A DNA stretch of 64,000 nucleotides from a bacterium (lineage in GTDB: Bacteria > Orphanbacterota > Orphanbacteria > Orphanbacterales > Orphanbacteraceae). This document shows positions 34,210 through 46,007 of this stretch, one piece after another. The translations under genes were made by a program, and so were the position numbers. A model generated the notes under the pieces. It ran no database searches and had not been told where the DNA came from. It saw only the letters and a program-made list of their open reading frames with translations. Position 1 is the first letter of the stretch, and every line of letters begins with the position of its first letter. The stretch spans positions 1 through 64,000 of the forward strand of contig JALGYY010000008.1 of the NCBI GenBank assembly GCA_025782575.1, given 5' to 3'.

Positions 34210-36501
34210 ATGACGGTCACCAACAAAACGCTGCGACGTCTTCGCGAGCACCTCCGATCGTATGAGGGGAGCACGGGCAAGATCTATCGGGGCCTGCTTG
34301 TTCTGCTGCATACCCGCGGCTCTATCACGATCGACGACATCTATCGCCAGGCGAAAGACACTCTCGTCGAGGAAATCGACCTGAACCGGGGGATCGGAAA
34401 GCGGTGGGACTCCGATGAACGGGACGCCGTCTTCTCCATGGTGGAGCACTACTCAGGCCGCTATCTCTCGCCCGAAGATGTAGACGCCGTCGTTCTCTCC
34501 GCCACCAAATCCCAGCGTGCGCAGACGATCGAAGATGTGTCGAGCATGCCGGGTGCCTCATTCGCCCTGCTTCACCAGAAAGTGGAGGAATTCTGCGCCT
34601 CCCGCGAGGGGATTCCGCAAAAGGATCTGCTTCCCGAGCCGACCAGCGTCCGTGTCCGTATGATCCGCAAGCTCATCAGCGACCAGCTCGAGTATATCGG
34701 CGTGGCGAGGCATTTCGTGTCTGTGTGCGACCTCCTGCCCATCATGAGGAATACGATCGGCCCCCGCGGCGGCCTCGGGAAGATCGGGGGCAAAGCAGCC
34801 GGCGTAATCCTCGCCGAAAAGATTATTGGCGAGCATCTCAAAACTCGAAAAGAGGAGCCGGCGTTCGAGATCGCCACACCCGAGACCTGGTTCCTCCGAT
34901 CCGATCTATTCGTCGACTTCGTGCAGCAGAATGATCTCATGGAATATTACGACATCAAGTACAAGCCGATCGAGGAGATCAAGAAAGCTTACCCGTTGAT
35001 TCGTGAGGTCTTCAAGAACGGTAATTTCTCAACCTACATCCAGCAGCAACTCCGAGAGCTGCTCGAGCAGATCGGAGAGCACCCGCTTATTGTTCGATCG
35101 TCGAGCCTTCTGGAGGACAACTTCGGGTCGGCTTTTTGCGGCAAGTATCAGTCCATTTATGTTGCCAATCAGGGACGGCTGGAAGACAGGCTGCAGGATC
35201 TGGTCGGCGCGATAGCGGAAGTGTACGCATCGACAATCAGCCCGGATCCTATCCTGTATCGCTCGGATCGTAACCTGATCGATTACGACGAGCAGATGGG
35301 GATCATGATCCAGAAGGTGGTCGGCAAGAAATACGGCAAGTACTTCCTCCCCTCCTGGGCGGGGGTTGCCTTTTCACGGAACGAGTGGAGGTGGACTCCG
35401 CGGATCAAGCGGGAGGACGGGTTGCTTCGGATCGTACTCGGGCTCGGTACGCGCGCGGTCGATCGAGTAGGCGGCGACTATCCACGGATGGTCCCTCTCG
35501 GCATGCCCGATCTTCGTCCCGAAGTCTCCGCTGACGATGTGGTCCGCTACTCCCAGAAGTTTGTCGATGTGGTCGACATGGAGCAGAATCATTTCCGGAC
35601 AATCCCCGCCCGCGAGATTCTCGGCGCGGATGAACCGCCCGATCTCTTCCGGATCATTTCGATCCGCGACCATGGAATGATCCAGTCGCCCGCCACCCGT
35701 CTGATCAACGCTCCCGCGACCAGCCTGGTTGTTACGTTTGACGGACTGCTGAACGGCCCGTTCCCCGCGCTTATGCGTGAGCTGCTTCAATCACTGGAGG
35801 ATGCTTACGGCTGGCCGGTGGACATGGAATTCGCCTACGACGGAGAAAAGCTCTACCTGCTTCAATGTCGCCCCCAGGGCCAGAGAGACGAATCAGTCGA
35901 AGTAAAAATCCCCGTGAACATACCGAACAAACGAAAGATCTTCAGCGCATCGAAATACGTCCAGACCGGGAAAGTGGAAAATATAGAGTACATCATCTAC
36001 ATCGACCCGCTCGACTACGACAAGCTGGAGACGCTGAACAGCAAAATCAGTATCGGGAAAGTGGTGGGCCAGCTCAATCATCGACTGAAAGGGAAGCGCT
36101 TCATTCTACTCGGGCCGGGCAGGTGGGGATCCAATGACATTAACCTGGGTGTCCGCGTTCAGTATGGCGACATCAATCACACGCTTGCCCTTATTGAAAT
36201 GGCGCGGAGCCAGGGGGCCTACACTCCCGATGTCTCGTTCGGCACGCACTTCTTCCAGGATCTGACCGAGGCAAGTATCTTCTATCTTCCACTCTACCCC
36301 GACGAAGAGAAGAACATCTTCAATGAGAAGTTCATGCGAGGGGCGCCGAACGTGCTTGCCGCCCTTCTTCCGGAAGCGGCACGGCAGGCCAATACGATTC
36401 ATGTGATTCACGTGCCGGGAAGCACCCGCGGCCTTTTTCTCCATCTCTACATGACTTCGGACAAGGACAAGGCACTGGCATTTCTGGGCAAGGAATTGTA
36501 G
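34210..36501 (+). CDS. PEP/pyruvate-binding domain protein lacking the phospho-His domain
   Basis: A 763-residue protein. Residues 1-150 are an unrecognised helical region. The ATP-grasp-like PEP/pyruvate-binding domain of PEP synthase/PPDK follows: LGKIGGKAAGVILAEKI near 196, PLIVRSSSLLEDNFGSAFCGKY near 297, an SAGVAFSRN-like block (WAGVAFSRNEWRW) and VDMEFAYDGEKLYLLQCRPQ near 540. The C-terminal 190 residues (FILLGPGRWGSND and so on) form a separate domain seen in such short proteins. The swivelling phospho-histidine domain and the TIM-barrel of PEP synthase are absent, so it cannot run the full reaction alone. It lies 45 bases after glutamate dehydrogenase and may be cotranscribed with it. 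Confidence 0.8.
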   Translation: MTVTNKTLRRLREHLRSYEGSTGKIYRGLLVLLHTRGSITIDDIYRQAKDTLVEEIDLNRGIGKRWDSDERDAVFSMVEHYSGRYLSPEDVDAVVLSATKSQRAQTIEDVSSMPGASFALLHQKVEEFCASREGIPQKDLLPEPTSVRVRMIRKLISDQLEYIGVARHFVSVCDLLPIMRNTIGPRGGLGKIGGKAAGVILAEKIIGEHLKTRKEEPAFEIATPETWFLRSDLFVDFVQQNDLMEYYDIKYKPIEEIKKAYPLIREVFKNGNFSTYIQQQLRELLEQIGEHPLIVRSSSLLEDNFGSAFCGKYQSIYVANQGRLEDRLQDLVGAIAEVYASTISPDPILYRSDRNLIDYDEQMGIMIQKVVGKKYGKYFLPSWAGVAFSRNEWRWTPRIKREDGLLRIVLGLGTRAVDRVGGDYPRMVPLGMPDLRPEVSADDVVRYSQKFVDVVDMEQNHFRTIPAREILGADEPPDLFRIISIRDHGMIQSPATRLINAPATSLVVTFDGLLNGPFPALMRELLQSLEDAYGWPVDMEFAYDGEKLYLLQCRPQGQRDESVEVKIPVNIPNKRKIFSASKYVQTGKVENIEYIIYIDPLDYDKLETLNSKISIGKVVGQLNHRLKGKRFILLGPGRWGSNDINLGVRVQYGDINHTLALIEMARSQGAYTPDVSFGTHFFQDLTEASIFYLPLYPDEEKNIFNEKFMRGAPNVLAALLPEAARQANTIHVIHVPGSTRGLFLHLYMTSDKDKALAFLGKEL

Positions 36502-36510
36502 AGCGGTTTC

Positions 36511-36660
36511 CTAATAATTCCCGTCAAATATCCGGTACACGTCGGACTCTGACCAGGTCTCATGGAGGGCGGCCCGCACACCGTCGAATCGGAACATATT
36601 CGCGATCTCTTTGTAGACCTTGATATAGCGCCCAGGTTCAAAAGCGGATCCGACCACAAC
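36511..36660 (-). pseudogene. displaced 3' end of PTS EIIA gene (direct repeat copy 1)
   Basis: Read on the minus strand, this encodes the last 49 residues of the EIIA-like protein at 41023-41526 (VVVGSAFEP..., ending IFDGNY and stop TAG). It differs from the intact copy at only two bases over 36521-36660 versus 41033-41172. In-frame stop TAG occurs just upstream, so it cannot be expressed as part of a gene. It lies 9 bases from the convergent PEP/pyruvate-binding gene, which suggests it is the original gene end. Confidence 0.85.
36521..36660. repeat. 140-base direct repeat, left copy
   Basis: It matches 41033-41172 at 138 of 140 positions, in the same orientation and 4512 bases apart. The two copies bracket three plus-strand genes. 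Confidence 0.93.
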
Positions 36661-37154
36661 AACCTAACGAGGTACGGCAAACGATGCCACAAGGAATCCT
36701 TCAGTTCCAGTTCGAATCGGAAAAGAGTGATCCGGGAACCGTTGCGGGAGCTGGAACTGCCGGGGCTGGGAGTGCCCGAGCCCCTTTCCCGGCGATGCCG
36801 TCCGGGTGGTGTACCACTCGAACCGTTTTTGAATCCGTGTGGCGGCAACTAGAGAATCGTTGCAGACTTTGCTCACGGCGCGTCGCCGGATCCTTGCTTT
36901 GGCAAACAGTCCGCCCGGGTTGAACTCAGCATCCATAGCCGGGAAGAGTGGGGCGTTGGCATGGGCGGTGTCGGTTGCGGAGCATTGTTTTTGATCAACT
37001 GATCACGACGGTGCGAGCCCCTGAAGGCCGTCGAGCCCGGCTGATGTTGCTCGCGGGAGCCCGGGCCTTGTCTGACCAGATAGCTCGACGTAATAACGGA
37101 GCGCAAAATTGATCGCCCGGCCGGTAAGCGACCACTACCGGCGGATTATGAGCC

Positions 37155-37184
37155 TTGACCACTTCCTTCAATTTTCGCTAAACT
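37155..37184 (+). promoter_or_regulatory. candidate promoter for the cassette
   Basis: TTGACC and TAAACT are spaced by 18 bases, 40 bases before the carbamoyltransferase ATG. It would drive all three overlapping cassette genes. Confidence 0.45.
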
Positions 37185-37224
37185 GCATGGGATTTCAACA
37201 CCATCAACCTATTGAGGTATCTCT

Positions 37225-38934
37225 ATGCTAGTGCTCGGCTTGCACGACGGAAAGGACGCGGGTGTCGCGCTGATCGACGGCACCGAAGTCCTGTTCGCCG
37301 CCAACGAGGAACGGTACTCGCGGCGAAAGCTTCACTTCGGGTTCCCGTTCCTGGCGCTCGAGAAGATGTTCCGGCACACAGGTGTCAGACCATCCGACAT
37401 CGCGGTAGTCACCGCCGGCTTCGAGGCGATGGTGGAGAACACGGAATCGGCGTACGATTACGCTGCGCAGCCGCGCCTCCACCAGAAGGTATTCTCCGTC
37501 CTCGCCCGCTCATTCGGACCTCTGATGAACAGCAAACTCGCCGCGTACGGCTCACTCCAGCTCATGAAACTCATGAGCCAGAACAAGGAGGAGCTCGAAC
37601 AGAACTTGAAGGAGCTTGGGATCACGGGGTCGGTCCACTACATGAATCACCACATGTCCCACGCGGCATCCGCGTACTATGCTTGCGGCAAAGATCCGGC
37701 GCTGATCATTTCCTCGGACGGTGGAGGGGACGGAATCTCGGGGGGAATCTACATCGGCCGGAACGGCAATCTCACCAATGAGACGACCTTCTCCAAGCTG
37801 AACTCGGCGGGGATTTTCTGGGAGATCATCACACAAATCTGTGGCTTCAATCCGGAGCGGCACGGCGGCAAGATCACTGGGCTGGCCGCGTACTCGTCCG
37901 GTGACCAGGCGTACGCGATCCTCTCCGAGTTGTTCGCATACAACGAGAAGACGGGCGGACTCCTGAACAAGGGGCAGCGGGCGTTCCAGGACGCGTACCA
38001 ACTCGTCCGAAAGAAGGTAAAACACCTCGACATCCAGGAGCTTTCGGCGGGGGCGCAACGAATCCTCGACGAAGTGTTCGTCAGCACAGTGCGCGAAGCG
38101 GTCGCGCGCCACGATCTCCACGACATCGCACTCGTCGGCGGGACGTTCGCGAACGTACGCACCAACCTGCGCATCCGCGAGATCGAGGGGGTGGACAGCG
38201 TTTTCGTCTTCCCGCACATGGGGGATGGCGGGATCACGATCGGAAGCGCCTGGCTCTACCACGGTGACCAGGGCGGCGGGCTCCCGGTTCGAAAACTGCC
38301 CGATGTCTACTGGGGCGACGAGTTCACGGATGCGCAGATCCAGGCAGAGCTCGAGGTCTCGAAGGGGATCCGCTGGGAGAAGCTCGAGAACCCAGCAGAC
38401 GCGATCGGCGAAGCGCTCGCAGAGAAGAAAGTCGTGGGGCTCTTCCAGGGGCGGATGGAATTCGGGCCGCGCGCGCTCGGGCACCGCAGTATCCTCGCCG
38501 AACCGAACGACGCAGAAATGATGGACTGGCTCAATAAGCGGCTCGGCCGCACCGAGTTCATGCCGTTCGCCCCGATCATCATGGAGGAACATGCCGCCGA
38601 GTACTTCGACGATTTCGAGGGCGTTTCCTACCCGTGCCAGTTCATGACGATCTGCACGCACTGCACGCCGCTATGCAAGGAGAAGGCGGCCGGCGTGGTC
38701 CACATCGATGGAACCGCGCGTCCGCAGACCGTCTCGAAGTCGGTCGACCCATACCTCCATGCCGCGCTCGCAGCGCATAGGGAGAAAACGGGACTGCCGC
38801 TAGCGATCAACACCAGCTTCAATAAGCACGAGGAACCGATTGTGGGGAGCCCTACGGATACGGTCTCCGAGCTTCTCCGAGGCGCTGTAGACGTCGTGTT
38901 CCTTGAGTCGTATCGGGTCACCGCGAGAGGGTGA
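37225..38934 (+). CDS. carbamoyltransferase (NodU/TobZ family)
   Basis: A 569-residue enzyme that moves a carbamoyl group from carbamoyl phosphate, through carbamoyl-AMP, onto a hydroxyl of a sugar or antibiotic. The N-terminal Kae1-like half has LGLHDGKDAGVALIDG, NHHMSHAASAYY (metal-binding His cluster), LIISSDGGGDG and NPERHGGKITGLAAY. The C-terminal YrdC-like half has GLFQGRMEFGPRALGHRSIL, a family hallmark. Length and both halves are complete. GAGG lies just before the ATG. Its stop overlaps the next frame's GTG. In this cassette it probably decorates a surface glycan or glycolipid. It could serve a small molecule instead. Confidence 0.92.
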   Translation: MLVLGLHDGKDAGVALIDGTEVLFAANEERYSRRKLHFGFPFLALEKMFRHTGVRPSDIAVVTAGFEAMVENTESAYDYAAQPRLHQKVFSVLARSFGPLMNSKLAAYGSLQLMKLMSQNKEELEQNLKELGITGSVHYMNHHMSHAASAYYACGKDPALIISSDGGGDGISGGIYIGRNGNLTNETTFSKLNSAGIFWEIITQICGFNPERHGGKITGLAAYSSGDQAYAILSELFAYNEKTGGLLNKGQRAFQDAYQLVRKKVKHLDIQELSAGAQRILDEVFVSTVREAVARHDLHDIALVGGTFANVRTNLRIREIEGVDSVFVFPHMGDGGITIGSAWLYHGDQGGGLPVRKLPDVYWGDEFTDAQIQAELEVSKGIRWEKLENPADAIGEALAEKKVVGLFQGRMEFGPRALGHRSILAEPNDAEMMDWLNKRLGRTEFMPFAPIIMEEHAAEYFDDFEGVSYPCQFMTICTHCTPLCKEKAAGVVHIDGTARPQTVSKSVDPYLHAALAAHREKTGLPLAINTSFNKHEEPIVGSPTDTVSELLRGAVDVVFLESYRVTARG

Positions 38935-38939
38935 TTGGC

Positions 38940-40244
38940 ATGTCGAGACTTCTCGACCATTGGAAGCTTCCACAGCCGCTCGAGAAGAGTTACCGGCCGT
39001 GGCAGGGGGGCTCGCTTCCGCCGGACGCCGTTCCTCAACTGAGCCGGTTCTGCGGCAGGACGATCTGGATTCATCCTTCGGACACCGCGGATCCCGGGTC
39101 GCCGTTCACCACCGACGACGAAAAAACCCCCTTCCGGCCCGACGTGTCAATCGAGAGCGTTCAGCTCGAACGCTACACGGGCGCAGTCGCCGCCGAAGGC
39201 GCCAAGACCCGCCTCCTCAAGACCGCCTACTACTTGCTCAAGCCGCTCATGCCCCGATCTGCCCAGCTCGCCGCCCAGCGCATGAACGCCAACTCCCGGA
39301 TGCGGAAATCGGTCTACCCCGCGTGGCCGGGCGACGATTCGGTCGACCATCTCCTCCAAGCCGCGCTCGGGTGCCTCCTGGATGCCGCCGGCCTCGAGCG
39401 TACGCCCTTCATCGGTTTCTGGCCGAAGGGATATCGATGGGCCGCATGCTTCACACACGATGTGGAGATGACCGCCGGGCTTCGCGCGATGGACCGAATG
39501 GCGGGCATTGAGGAGGAGTACGGGATTCGGTCGACGTGGTACATCGTGCCCGAACGCTACCCGGTCAAGTCATCCGATTTCGCCTCGCTCCGGGATCGTG
39601 GCCACGAGATCGGTGTCCATGGTCTCAATCACGACGGGAAGCTCTTCGCGAGCGAGGCGGAGTTCATGCGCCGTGTTCCGCTCATCAACCGATACATCCG
39701 TGAGTGGGAGGCAGTCGGATTCCGCTCGCCGGCGCTCTACCGAAACGCCGACTGGATCACCCGGCTTGAGATCCGCTACGACACATCCTACATGGACACG
39801 GCGATCCTCGAGCCGCAATACGGCGGTGTCGGCATGGTCCTTCCGTACTACCTGGACGACCGCGTCCTGGAATTGCCGATCACAATGCCGATGGACCACC
39901 ATCTGATCAACCTGCTCCGAAAGGACACCGTCCAGGGAATGTCGGAGAAGTTCCGGTGGGTCGTGGAGCGGGGGGGGCTCGCGAACTTCCTATTCCATCC
40001 CGATTACAACCTTGAACAGGAGCGGATGGACGATTATCGCAAGGTCGTGGATGAGGTCACGGGGACGGAGGGAGGATGGGTTGCGACTGCCGCGGAAATC
40101 GCCGACTGGTGGGACCGCAGGCACCGATCGCACCTCCGGGAGGAGACGGGAACGATCCGCGTGGACGGTCCGGCGGCAGATGACGCCGAGGTTTGGACAG
40201 CGGTGCGCGATGGCACCGGCCTTCGGATCGAGCGTGGACAATAG
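38940..40244 (+). CDS. polysaccharide deacetylase-fold protein
   Basis: A 434-residue protein. The C-terminal 260 residues show the NodB-type CE4 fold: WAACFTHDVEMT (the catalytic Asp-Asp motif reads HD-V here), RSTWYIVPER, LRDRGHEIGVHGLNHDG (HxxxH-like metal site) and VGFRSPALYRN. The catalytic motif is THDVE rather than TFDDG, a variant common in large deacetylase-like proteins from glycan clusters. The N-terminal 160 residues are unrecognised. ATG at 38940 follows GAGAGGG. An alternative GTG at 38931 overlaps the carbamoyltransferase stop. It is the middle gene of the cassette and ends 13 bases before the methyltransferase. Confidence 0.78.
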   Translation: MSRLLDHWKLPQPLEKSYRPWQGGSLPPDAVPQLSRFCGRTIWIHPSDTADPGSPFTTDDEKTPFRPDVSIESVQLERYTGAVAAEGAKTRLLKTAYYLLKPLMPRSAQLAAQRMNANSRMRKSVYPAWPGDDSVDHLLQAALGCLLDAAGLERTPFIGFWPKGYRWAACFTHDVEMTAGLRAMDRMAGIEEEYGIRSTWYIVPERYPVKSSDFASLRDRGHEIGVHGLNHDGKLFASEAEFMRRVPLINRYIREWEAVGFRSPALYRNADWITRLEIRYDTSYMDTAILEPQYGGVGMVLPYYLDDRVLELPITMPMDHHLINLLRKDTVQGMSEKFRWVVERGGLANFLFHPDYNLEQERMDDYRKVVDEVTGTEGGWVATAAEIADWWDRRHRSHLREETGTIRVDGPAADDAEVWTAVRDGTGLRIERGQ

Positions 40245-40257
40245 CCAGGAGAGTCCG

Positions 40258-41007
40258 ATGCCTCTTTTTCCATTGGCGGACCCGAAGGACGACGGGAGCG
40301 CGGAGGAAGAACGGATCGTCCGAGCTGTCGCCGACTTCTACGAGGAGCTGATCTTCCCTTCACAGGGAAGCCACACCGCCTATCATCGCCTGCTCGATCC
40401 CTCCCCGGGCGAGAGGATCGGTGACTTCGGCTGCGGCCAGTCCCTGCTCCACACATCGCTCCGCGACCACCGGCCGCCCCCCATCTTCTTTGACATCTCG
40501 CGAAACGTTCTGTCGAGGATCACCTCCGGACACCGGGTGCGCGGGGACATCCGCCGTCTGCCGTTCCGGCCCGGATCGTTCGACCGGATCCTGTGTGTGG
40601 GCGTGATTCACCACCTGCCGCAACCGCACCGGATCCTCGACCAGATCGCAGGCGTCCTCCGTCCGGGAGGGGAGTTGCTCCTCGGCGTCTACAGTCCCGG
40701 AACGCTTCCCACGAAGCTGCGGGGCCTCCATGATGCGTGGGAGTTCCCACCCTGGCGCCGAGCGGTCTCCTTCCTCACCGGCGCGATGATCCAGGCCCGC
40801 TCTGCCATGGGAGGGAAGATCCTCCCGAGACAGGAGGTCTGCACACGCATCAAGGATTTCCTCGAAGTGCCCTATGTCCAGGTGAACTCCGCCGACTTCT
40901 ACGCCGCCCGCTCCGGTTTCCGCCTGTTGCGCCTACAGCGCATCTCCACAATGAACGTGCTTCATCTCGAACGGACCGATCAAGGCGGAAAACAAGATGG
41001 CCCATAG
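40258..41007 (+). CDS. class I SAM-dependent methyltransferase
   Basis: A 249-residue protein with the SAM-binding fold: RIGDFGCGQSLL (glycine motif I), PIFFDISRNVL (motif II acidic strand reads FFD), GDIRRLPFRPGSFDRILCVGVIHHL (post-motif loop) and LRPGGELLLGVYSPG (motif III). It is similar to small-molecule or sugar methyltransferases with a variable C-terminus. CAGGAGAG precedes the ATG at 40258. The preceding stop is 13 bases upstream, and it closes the three-gene cassette. The acceptor is unknown. The right direct repeat starts 25 bases after its stop. Confidence 0.85.
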   Translation: MPLFPLADPKDDGSAEEERIVRAVADFYEELIFPSQGSHTAYHRLLDPSPGERIGDFGCGQSLLHTSLRDHRPPPIFFDISRNVLSRITSGHRVRGDIRRLPFRPGSFDRILCVGVIHHLPQPHRILDQIAGVLRPGGELLLGVYSPGTLPTKLRGLHDAWEFPPWRRAVSFLTGAMIQARSAMGGKILPRQEVCTRIKDFLEVPYVQVNSADFYAARSGFRLLRLQRISTMNVLHLERTDQGGKQDGP

Positions 41008-41022
41008 AGGATAGTGTCCGGG

Positions 41023-41526
41023 TTAGAAATTACCGTCAAATATCCGGTACACGTCGGACTCTGACCAGGTCTCATGGAGGGCGGCCCGCACACCGTCGAA
41101 TCGGAACATATTCGCGATCTCTTTGTAGACCTTGATATAGCGTTCAGGTTCAAAAGCGGATCCGACCACAACGATAAAAAAGTGAACCCGTTCGCCGTCC
41201 GGGGCGTCGAACTCGTATCCCTCGATCGACCGGCAGAATCCGAGCATACAGTCGCGCACCTTCTTCGAACGGATATGGGGGACGGCGATCCCGTGTCCGA
41301 TCGCCGTACTCGCTTTCTTTTCCCGATTCCAGAGATCGTTGAATAGGCGATTCTGATTATCCACGCGACCGGTGGCATAGAGGAGCTCGGTGATCTCGGT
41401 GATCACGCTCTTCTTCACGCGCGCTATGTATCCGTCTTTGTCGTAGTCATCTTCCTCGGGCGGATCGATACGAGTCTGCATGTCGAGGCAGATAAATCCG
41501 TTTCGCAGGTAGTTGGACATTCGCAT
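41023..41526 (-). CDS. PTS EIIA (fructose/PtsN-type) domain protein
   Basis: A 167-residue protein with an EIIA-2 domain. STAIGHGIAVPHIRSKKVRD holds the phosphorylatable His in the PHxR motif, and DGERVHFFIVVVG is the following strand. It probably has a regulatory role like PtsN, since no sugar permease genes are near. The start is uncertain: ATG at 41526 and 41520 are the likely ones, although the frame is open to 41661. The last 46 codons lie in the right copy of the 140-base direct repeat, so the current gene end was probably delivered or rebuilt when the cassette inserted. Confidence 0.82.
   Translation of the reverse strand: MRMSNYLRNGFICLDMQTRIDPPEEDDYDKDGYIARVKKSVITEITELLYATGRVDNQNRLFNDLWNREKKASTAIGHGIAVPHIRSKKVRDCMLGFCRSIEGYEFDAPDGERVHFFIVVVGSAFEPERYIKVYKEIANMFRFDGVRAALHETWSESDVYRIFDGNF
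41033..41172. repeat. 140-base direct repeat, right copy
   Basis: Same sequence as 36521-36660 with two mismatches (41143-41144 read TT where the left copy has CC). It is the functional 3' end of the EIIA gene. Confidence 0.93.
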
Positions 41527-41653
41527 AACCTGTGATGGTAGCGGACCACCCTCGCTATGCACAAGAGCGAGAAATCCCCCGCTCCCTTCATTCCGGATTC
41601 GGCATCCACCCCTCCCTGTGGCATTATGTGACTGGTAGGAGGTGTCGGATCGC

Positions 41654-42769
41654 ATGAACATCCTGTTCCTGGGAAACTCGTTTGGTGTCGGGGGCTACGA
41701 GCAACTGATGCTCGAAGTGTTTCGCGGCATGAGCGCAAACGGAATCCAGGTCGACGCCTGCTTCCTGAAGGACGGGGGAAAGCTCGCGCCCGAACTGGAA
41801 AAGTGCGGAGTTCCCGTAAAGAGCGGTTTCCTGCGGGGCAAATATGATGTGGCCGCGCCGGGGCGAATCGTCCGGGAGTACCGGGGGAAGCGGTTTGACG
41901 CTCTCTTCGTCGAAACCGGACGGAATGCGCTCCTCGCCGGGGAATACATTGCCGGCCGGCTCCGGATCGGACGGCGCATCACATCCGTCCATTCCACCGG
42001 GAAGTGGGGGGGCGGCAAACTCTTCAGGCGGAGCCAGCTCTTTTTGCTCCGCCGGCTGGATGGCATCATCGCCTGTGCGGAAACGCAGCGCCGCTACCTC
42101 GTTCGGGACGAAGGCCTCCCTGAGCCACTTCTGAAGACGATCTTCAACGGCGTGGATCACCGGAAATTCAAGCCCCGTCCCAAAGTCGATCTCCCCCCGT
42201 TTCCCGAAGGGGGGGCGTCCGCCCGGCGTATCGCCATTGTCGCCTCGCTCACACCGGAGAAAGGACACGAAGTCTTCATCGAGGCGGCCGGTATCACTCG
42301 AAAGCGATTCCCCGATTCCCGTTACTTCATCATCGGTGACGGACCGGAGAGAGAAAGATTAAAGGAGAGAATCGGAGCAGCGGGGCTGCGGGAAAGCGTC
42401 GTACTGCTCGGCATCCGAAGGGATCTGCCGGAGCTCCTGCCGCATTTCGACCTTCTAGCGCTCTCGTCTCACCCCTTTCGGGAGACTCTGCCCATTTCGA
42501 CGATGGAGGGGATGGCCTGCGGTCTCCCCACGGTAAACACCGACGTCGGGAGTGCCCGCGACCTCGTGCTCGACGGCGAGACCGGTTATCTCGTTCCGCC
42601 CGGCAATCCGGTTGCGCTATCAGAGGCGTTTTCCCGCATTCTCGGTGATTCCGAACATGCCGCTTCCCTCGGTCGCGCGGCAAGGTCGCGGATCGAAGAT
42701 CTGTTCACTCTCGATCGGTCTGTCGCCGATTACACGGACTACTTCCGGCGACAGACCAGTAAAGAGTAG
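41654..42769 (+). CDS. glycosyltransferase, GT4-like
   Basis: A 371-residue GT-B glycosyltransferase. NILFLGNSFGVGGYEQLMLEV is the acceptor-side start, IAIVASLTPEKGHEVFIEA opens the nucleotide-sugar domain, IIGDGPERERLKERI follows and STMEGMACGLPTVNTDVG is the conserved E-x7-E-type region. It adds a sugar to a lipid-linked or protein-linked glycan at the inner membrane face. ATG at 41654 is preceded by TAGGAGG. It diverges from the EIIA gene and lies 6 bases ahead of a second glycosyltransferase. Confidence 0.9.
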   Translation: MNILFLGNSFGVGGYEQLMLEVFRGMSANGIQVDACFLKDGGKLAPELEKCGVPVKSGFLRGKYDVAAPGRIVREYRGKRFDALFVETGRNALLAGEYIAGRLRIGRRITSVHSTGKWGGGKLFRRSQLFLLRRLDGIIACAETQRRYLVRDEGLPEPLLKTIFNGVDHRKFKPRPKVDLPPFPEGGASARRIAIVASLTPEKGHEVFIEAAGITRKRFPDSRYFIIGDGPERERLKERIGAAGLRESVVLLGIRRDLPELLPHFDLLALSSHPFRETLPISTMEGMACGLPTVNTDVGSARDLVLDGETGYLVPPGNPVALSEAFSRILGDSEHAASLGRAARSRIEDLFTLDRSVADYTDYFRRQTSKE

Positions 42770-43999: not shown

Positions 44000-46007
44000 G
44001 GGTCATCCGCCCCGAGACTTCCCGAACCGGTGTCTTTACCAGATAAACGTATACACCGCTCGGCACATCGCGGCCCCTTCCATCGAGGCCATTCCACACG
44101 ACTTCTCTCTGGCCGGGGAAAGCGTTCTCATCGACCAGAAGACGGATCAATCGGCCGGTCACATCGTAAATCTCTATGCGCACCCGGCCCCGGGACCGGA
44201 GCTCATATCGGATTGTCGTTGACGGGTTGAACGGGTTCGGCCGGTTCGAGTGAAGCGCAAGGTAATGTCCGTCGAGTGCCGGCGGCCGAACGGCGGCCCC
44301 CTCCGAAAGCGCAAACCTCCCGAACTCCTGAATCAGGGCGACCACTTCCCCCCGTTTGTGATCGATCCATGTCTCCAGGTCCCGTTCTCGATCGAGATCG
44401 CGAATGATACAGGGATCTTCATCGAATCCGCCGGCTGAACCGGGCGGGATCTTGATACGGAGCAGTGCACGCCGGCTGAGCAGGAGATCGCGAGGATGGA
44501 GAACATAAGTCTCTGGAGCGCGATTATCCGGCACGATGAGAGCCCAGACATCGTAAGGCAATCCGCCGGATGGGACCTCCACCAGAATCGAGCCGCCAGG
44601 ATCAGCGACAAAGCCTTCATGGTCTTTCAACAGGCGGACCGCGCTGAATTCGGACTCCCCCTCCCCTTCGTTGCCGGCCGAATCGACTGCCGTCGCCAGA
44701 AGACGGATCGCGCCATCTTCTACCAGCGTGAAATCCCCTTTCCAGACCATTCCCGCTTCATCGAGGGGAGCGAGCAAGAGCGTATCGATCACAAAATCGT
44801 TCCGTACCAGTCGCATCTCACCGGAAGCAAGCGGTTCGGATGAAACAATGACGAGATCGAGTCGTTCGGTGAGAAACGGATTCTGAAGAACGCCGACTGT
44901 CACCATGGGAGGGGTCAGATCCATCGGCGAACCGGAACGGGAGATGACCTCCCCGTATTGCGGTACCTCGTCAAATGCAAAAGCGCCGTAATGATAAGTC
45001 TTGCCGTAAACAAGTCCTTCGTGAACGAAGGAATCGACTGAGGAGGGAAGGCCGTGAAAGAGACCATCGTTCCCGTTCGGCACCGGATCGCCGTCGGTCA
45101 CGCTCCCGATCACGCGGGAATCGGAAAACCGAATCAACGTCCCTTCGAAATCGTCGTCATTCGGATTCGTCCAGTGCAGAACGAGACGGCCGTCCTGCTC
45201 CGCAATCTGAAAGTCGATGACGTTACCGGGAGGCCCCGGGTCTGACGGAAAAGCGGAGGCGGTCGCGCCGAGTGTATCGACATTGTTCGACCGATCGATC
45301 GAGAAGAATCGATAACGGTGATGCTTCCCGTTCGTTACCGGTTTGTGAACGAATGTGAGAGTGTCTCCGGGGATGCCGACGAAGAGTCCGTTCTGCCCGT
45401 TTTCGACCGGCAGATCATCTTCGTAGGATGGGGGGAAGCGGTCCAGACTGTATCGAATCAAAGTCCCGTAGAAGTCGCCGGAACCGGGGTTCCGCCAGGT
45501 GAGTGTGACACGGCCGTCCCCCCCTACCGCGCTCGCCTCTTCGACCGGGTCAGGAGTGGTGGTGTCCCATGCGTCGGCGGCCGTTTCCGCCGCCTGTGAA
45601 TAACGCCGCGCATCATCGAAAACGAAAGCGGAGTAAAAGTACCTTCTGGAATCATCGATTCCCATATGGATGAAGTCGCGCGAGCTCCCCGGCCATCCCG
45701 GAAACTCACCAGGCTCTTCGCCGGAGCCACTCTCAGGTACGGGGAGGCCGTCATCCGGGAGGCTCGGGAAATCCGACGTGGAGTACCGAATCCGGACACC
45801 CTGAATCGCTGTAGTGTCCTCGGAAAACGTCCAGGAGAGCGAGATACCCCCCTCTACAAGGACATGCGCCACAAAACCGGCCAGCGGCGGCGGACCGGCA
45901 ACGGAACGGCTGTCTCTATCTGCAGCCGCCTCGAGAGCATCCGCATCAGGAACGGCGCCGGCCAGGGTAAGCGCGATCGCCGCGACAAATGTAAGGGAAA
46001 TCTTCAT
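43989..46007 (-). CDS. secreted multi-domain protein with FlgD-like C-terminal domain
   Basis: A 672-residue exported protein: signal peptide MKISLTFVAAIALTLAGAVPDADA, then three repeated fibronectin-III-like units. Each unit has a VTLTWRNPGSGDFYGTLIRYS or LVLHWTNPNDDDFEGTLIRFS strand block and a FVHEGLVYGKTYHYGAFAFDE type ending. An Ig-like part follows. The C-terminus NRPNPFNPSTTIRYEL...YDVTGRLIRLL...SGVYVYLVKT is a FlgD-like / type IX-like sorting domain used by FCB-group bacteria for surface attachment. It is the last gene of the glycan run. It may be a surface protein tied to that glycan. The start is set at the signal peptide. Confidence 0.82.
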   Translation of the reverse strand: MKISLTFVAAIALTLAGAVPDADALEAAADRDSRSVAGPPPLAGFVAHVLVEGGISLSWTFSEDTTAIQGVRIRYSTSDFPSLPDDGLPVPESGSGEEPGEFPGWPGSSRDFIHMGIDDSRRYFYSAFVFDDARRYSQAAETAADAWDTTTPDPVEEASAVGGDGRVTLTWRNPGSGDFYGTLIRYSLDRFPPSYEDDLPVENGQNGLFVGIPGDTLTFVHKPVTNGKHHRYRFFSIDRSNNVDTLGATASAFPSDPGPPGNVIDFQIAEQDGRLVLHWTNPNDDDFEGTLIRFSDSRVIGSVTDGDPVPNGNDGLFHGLPSSVDSFVHEGLVYGKTYHYGAFAFDEVPQYGEVISRSGSPMDLTPPMVTVGVLQNPFLTERLDLVIVSSEPLASGEMRLVRNDFVIDTLLLAPLDEAGMVWKGDFTLVEDGAIRLLATAVDSAGNEGEGESEFSAVRLLKDHEGFVADPGGSILVEVPSGGLPYDVWALIVPDNRAPETYVLHPRDLLLSRRALLRIKIPPGSAGGFDEDPCIIRDLDRERDLETWIDHKRGEVVALIQEFGRFALSEGAAVRPPALDGHYLALHSNRPNPFNPSTTIRYELRSRGRVRIEIYDVTGRLIRLLVDENAFPGQREVVWNGLDGRGRDVPSGVYVYLVKTPVREVSGRMTLIR

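Follow-up and report, generated by a model that had tools for sequence, protein, structure and literature searches.

How did a block of foreign DNA settle in the 3′ end of a conserved gene, with that gene still intact and no enzyme for the insertion in view? The question is raised by an EIIA gene in the window analysed here, which is the stretch of 64,000 nucleotides from base 1 to 64000 of contig C28. The genome is 4.88 Mb in 49 contigs. We describe the anatomy of the insertion, which we call the islet, and then weigh the routes by which it could have formed.

Results

The end of the EIIA gene is present twice

The original prediction reported that the end of the EIIA gene occurs as direct repeats 4512 bases apart (36521–36660 and 41033–41172), and the identity of 138/140 over these spans was reproduced. 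In self-comparison the repeat, D1, was recovered at 36516–36660 and 41028–41172 (145 nt, 98%, spacing 4512). Its full extent is 150 nt, through the stop codon, with the final 12 nt diverged. The longest identical run between the copies is 110 bases. On the 108-kb contig no other self-match comes near D1 in strength, and no second repeat of such kind is present; the whole genome holds two copies of D1 only. The features of the locus are listed in Table 1.

Table 1. Features of the EIIA locus and the islet, in window coordinates.
Feature	Coordinates	Strand	Basis
PPDK_N (PEP/pyruvate-binding) gene, native left flank	34210..36501	+	PF01326, E=2e-52
Native spacer of 9 bases between two convergent stops	36502..36510	.	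Sequence; similar spacing in G001, stops overlap in G002
Displaced native EIIA 3′ end, 50 codons including stop TAG, ends GNY-stop	36511..36660	-	
Islet left arm, non-coding, unique, no family match	36661..37224	.	
O-carbamoyltransferase (NodU/TobZ type)	37225..38934	+	PF16861 8e-54, PF02543 3e-26; GC3 0.81
Polysaccharide-deacetylase (NodB)-like protein	38931..40244	+	PF01522 E=1.9e-4, slightly under the curated cut-off; GC3 0.79
Class I SAM methyltransferase (Methyltransf_11)	40258..41007	+	PF08241 2e-15; GC3 0.78
Islet right end (GATAGTGTCCGGG...), unique in genome	41008..41022	.	
Replacement EIIA 3′ end, 50 codons including stop TAA, ends GNF-stop	41023..41172	-	
Native 5′ part of EIIA gene	41173..41661	-	PF00359

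The left D1 copy is a gene end with no gene in front of it; an in-frame TAG lies just upstream, and the native stop TAG is 9 bases from the PPDK_N stop. No EIIA homology was found past 36660 in the left arm (564 bases), so a longer, diverged EIIA sequence there was rejected. The right copy completes an intact EIIA gene matching PF00359. These observations agree with the earlier description of an orphan gene end and a working gene, and with the proposal that removing the block, about 4.4–4.5 kb in size, leaves PPDK_N and EIIA as a tight convergent pair about 9 bases apart. The listed EIIA ORF begins some 45 codons ahead of the homology and overlaps a divergent glycosyltransferase ORF. Since relatives align to EIIA from residue 40–46, translation probably starts near 41526.

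Three intact genes lie between the D1 copies. They had been predicted to overlap one another; the first two do, by 4 bases, whereas the third begins 13 bases after the second. The carbamoyltransferase matches solved structures of the TobZ/GdmN type and has the catalytic-site motifs HxxxH and GPRALGHRS. The deacetylase-like protein has the metal motif HD...HGxxH. A promoter-like sequence, recognised by consensus match (TTGACC-18-TAAACT, 37155–37184), is found 40 bases before the carbamoyltransferase gene; no known RNA was detected in 36000–41700. To the right of EIIA is a polysaccharide cluster encoding glycosyltransferases, a capsule-synthesis-type protein and sugar epimerases. Because the cargo adjoins this cluster, its products probably decorate a cell-surface glycan or lipid by O-carbamoylation, N-deacetylation and methylation.

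Differences between the two EIIA ends cluster in the last codons

On the EIIA coding strand, the D1 copies differ at 2 positions over the first 138 bases and at 4 over the last 12. The change is sharp, from 1.4% to about 33% (Fisher p=3e-4). The right copy ends GGT-AAT-TTC-TAA and the left copy GGG-AAT-TAT-TAG. Both encode Gly-Asn-aromatic-stop, as do all relatives except G003, which has Lys for Asn. When 400,000 random 12-mers were generated, 26 had the ending xN(F/Y)-stop and 574 matched the native end at 8/12 positions or more. Since endings of the first kind are so rare by chance, the right-hand terminus is, to judge from its codons, a real gene end. The left copy has the native-looking form, GNY-TAG, as in G002. 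It also carries G in place of a conserved acidic residue (D/E), a loss that fits an unselected, displaced copy.

A plain duplication predicts even similarity along the copies; conversely, an end brought in by an element may differ yet must keep the protein. The clustering of differences at the last codons, and the rarity of a chance origin, thus favour incoming DNA with its own EIIA end over target-site duplication. Both the mismatch and the random 12-mer tests were chosen after the data had been seen, and are support rather than proof.

The cassette is foreign

The cassette is horizontally acquired and compositionally foreign. A check of its composition against the flanks bore this out: GC3 of the cargo genes is 0.81, 0.79 and 0.78, which is 3–4 SD above the contig's genes (0.669 ± 0.035 in its remaining long ORFs). 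Within its own family of genomes, the deacetylase-like protein has weak, partial matches only. For each of the three genes the best relative belongs to G178, a genome of another phylum, which has the nearest complete set that we detected (63%, 46% and 45% identity); its methyltransferase gene is on the opposite strand. That set lies between ssb and a tRNA-Lys/tmRNA pair (L080 4977–9561), an interval that is possibly a second insertion locus for these genes. Among 79 further genomes of the G178 phylum, strong relatives of the deacetylase-like protein occur in only 2, and in neither is a carbamoyltransferase or methyltransferase gene alongside.

Relatives have an empty site or a different filling

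We compared the locus with six other genomes of the same family, all at genus distance. The gene order GDH–PPDK_N–EIIA is kept in the 4 relatives with both genes on one stretch, and in four relatives the PPDK_N gene is syntenic and 57–67% identical. The empty site that the original prediction led one to look for is present in two other genera of the family, and the gene pair is tight in both. Thus, 15 bases separate the PPDK_N and EIIA stops in G001, and the stops overlap (CTAG) in G002. Two glycosyltransferase genes adjoining EIIA are also near EIIA in relatives.

In G003, G004 and G006, the PPDK_N–EIIA interval holds a different gene, in the EIIA direction, for a PMT-type membrane glycosyltransferase (L024 8600–10400, L026 9901–11415 and L025 150–1664). 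The gene matches PF13231 in G004 and G006; that of G003 looks alike by eye. A second EIIA end is absent from all three intervals. Since three relatives hold an unrelated gene here, the sequences indicate that the interval has been filled at least twice, independently, by different DNA.

The closest further PPDK_N match, 58% identical, is from Gemmatimonadetes bacterium DeMMO4_6, where the contig ends just past PPDK_N. The sequence of this contig end (L092 7370–7452) is the same as that of a contig start in G006 (G006:C103, L025 1–70). Probably this is a repeated sequence at which the two assemblies broke off in this interval.

No recombinase, phage or mobile element accompanies the islet

As predicted, the gene content of the block by Pfam and NCBIfam includes no recombinase, and transfer genes are likewise absent from it. 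The genome has 12 matches to the tyrosine recombinase family, none near the islet. One is on the same contig (G000:C28:104910–105514); it is split over two frames and is therefore probably a pseudogene. We found no core-type inverted repeats in D1 (arms 8–13, spacer 5–9, at least 80%), and an exact 28-base stretch of D1 is absent from viral contigs. The region had no match in phage collections. With viral and phage collections empty of matches, a phage origin was rejected. No ICE, IME or phage using the same attachment site was seen in viral contigs, in phages or at the locus in family members, and no second copy or free form of the islet was found. The left arm gave matches of chance length only in 386 genomes and none in plasmids. 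The islet does not fit a tRNA-borne genomic island: there is no tRNA or tmRNA in the 64-kb window or the rest of the contig.

Alternative origins of the repeat pair

The original prediction also linked TAGTGTCC, near 41012 in the islet's right end, to the end of an IS630 element. This resemblance, and a small left-arm ORF (MPQGILQFQFESEKSDPG..., 36682–36920) that by eye is like a transposase start, would suit an insertion carried by an IS or transposon, be it by way of the IS630 end or of an IS that has decayed in the left arm. The IS630 link did not survive: the two sites share only 8 bases, and the 3 occurrences of TAGTGTCC in the window are close to the 0.72 expected by chance. One is at the IS630 end, at 106–113, which corrects 105–112, and another is at 45812. 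The genome has a single copy of the right-end 14-mer TAGTGTCCGGGTTA, and none of 385 other genomes contains the form extended to 15 bases. The 14-mer itself occurs in 44 viral contigs, none with a partner repeat. The left-arm ORF matches no transposase family and has no similarity to 30 IS1380-type loci, so a decayed IS1380 was rejected; nor was there a plasmid match of note. Transposase, terminal inverted repeats and a short target duplication, the marks of an insertion sequence or composite transposon, are absent. The IS or transposon reading is largely refuted and we regard it as very improbable. Equally improbable is an assembly artefact, or a strain mixture in this metagenome-assembled genome. 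The repeat length is close to large assembler word sizes, but the copies differ, with no identical run beyond 110 bases, and both junctions look biologically sensible. Moreover, the cassette is complete and compositionally distinct, and the empty sites of relatives fit a real insertion.

Two further readings are unlikely, though less remote. In one, a staggered break or an end-joining event doubled about 150 chromosomal bases around an EIIA-free fragment, and the last codons of the right copy mutated later. Direct repeats flanking an insert have the same geometry, the copies are nearly identical across 138 bases, and no recombinase is present. Against this, the right copy stops exactly at the stop codon, and the mismatch of 4/12 at the end compared with 2/138 is at odds with the uniform similarity that plain duplication should give. 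Target duplications of 150 bases are also atypical of known transposons. In the other reading, to which we would assign a shade more weight, the insertion is older and later gene conversion homogenised the diverged EIIA ends over 138 bases, with the last codons left as a relic. Direct repeats on one chromosome are able to convert each other, and the sharp change in mismatch is what such a tract would produce. Yet an extra step is needed, and the upstream stop of the left copy and its G for D/E change stayed unconverted.

A proposed single crossover in the EIIA 3′ end

On balance we lean towards a single incoming DNA molecule that became the islet through one crossover within the 3′ end of EIIA. 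The incoming DNA would have brought its own last 50 EIIA codons, ending GGT-AAT-TTC-TAA, and the crossover would fall within the 138 near-identical bases. EIIA would from then on use the incoming end, with its native one (GGG-AAT-TAT-TAG) displaced across the islet. Two agents are about equally likely in our view: RecA, through the homology, or a recombinase that worked in trans or was later lost (CIME-like). The 138/140 match far exceeds the need of a site-specific enzyme, so a single crossover by homologous recombination accounts for this anatomy too. An element arm almost identical to the native gene over 138 bases is odd, unless the element came from a close relative or gene conversion followed. 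The model is drawn from a single case in one assembly. A more particular version seems to us improbable: the islet as a minimal, enzyme-less mobile unit with a gene-end mimic, which relies on homologous recombination or on a recombinase supplied in trans by the host or a helper.

Discussion

Our analysis identifies the islet as a real, foreign, gene-end-rebuilding insertion that is ordinary in kind and well preserved; most likely it is integrase-less and CIME-like. The original interpretation stands for the foreign cassette, the empty site in relatives and the rebuilt EIIA end, and falls for the IS630 link.

The e14 element is one of the prophages that replace gene ends. In E. coli icd it displaces 163 bp (PMC6379469). 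Like e14, the islet would have entered the 3′ end of a protein-coding gene and supplied a substitute end of similar length, with the native end now lying beyond the element. The islet has three cargo genes and no integrase; e14, as well as phage genes, has recombination functions of its own. The cis-mobilizable elements (CIMEs) are decayed ICEs or IMEs with attL and attR but without integration and transfer genes (PMC5704250). Like them, the islet is flanked by direct repeats that lie at the 3′ end of a gene and leave that gene whole, has an empty site (attB) in genus-level relatives G001 and G002, and lacks integrase and transfer genes. It differs in that no related complete ICE or IME with this site was found and its repeats are far longer than usual att cores; its att sites are putative. 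Hence, with no related ICE, IME or phage at the same site, we do not claim CIME membership. Variable segments inserted by homology-facilitated illegitimate recombination (PMC2884548) are also alike in being small and foreign, placed between conserved genes and joined with the aid of homology, with no mobile-element genes. What sets the islet apart from those segments is its flanking repeat, a gene end by which the target gene is rebuilt.

Entry by supplying a gene end is a known route for foreign DNA into chromosomes; here its pattern is seen without a visible enzyme. The host phylum is sparsely sampled, with 7 genomes in the comparison set, and the islet is a clear fossil of cargo-only DNA settling in a conserved gene without destroying it. 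The mismatch pattern provides a simple test of element-borne gene ends against target-site duplications that is applicable to other genomes. Were the islet a mobile unit with a gene-end mimic, conserved genes could be repeated landing sites for cargo-only cassettes. If the cargo does act on a surface glycan, it would add carbamoyl, deacetyl and methyl decorations.
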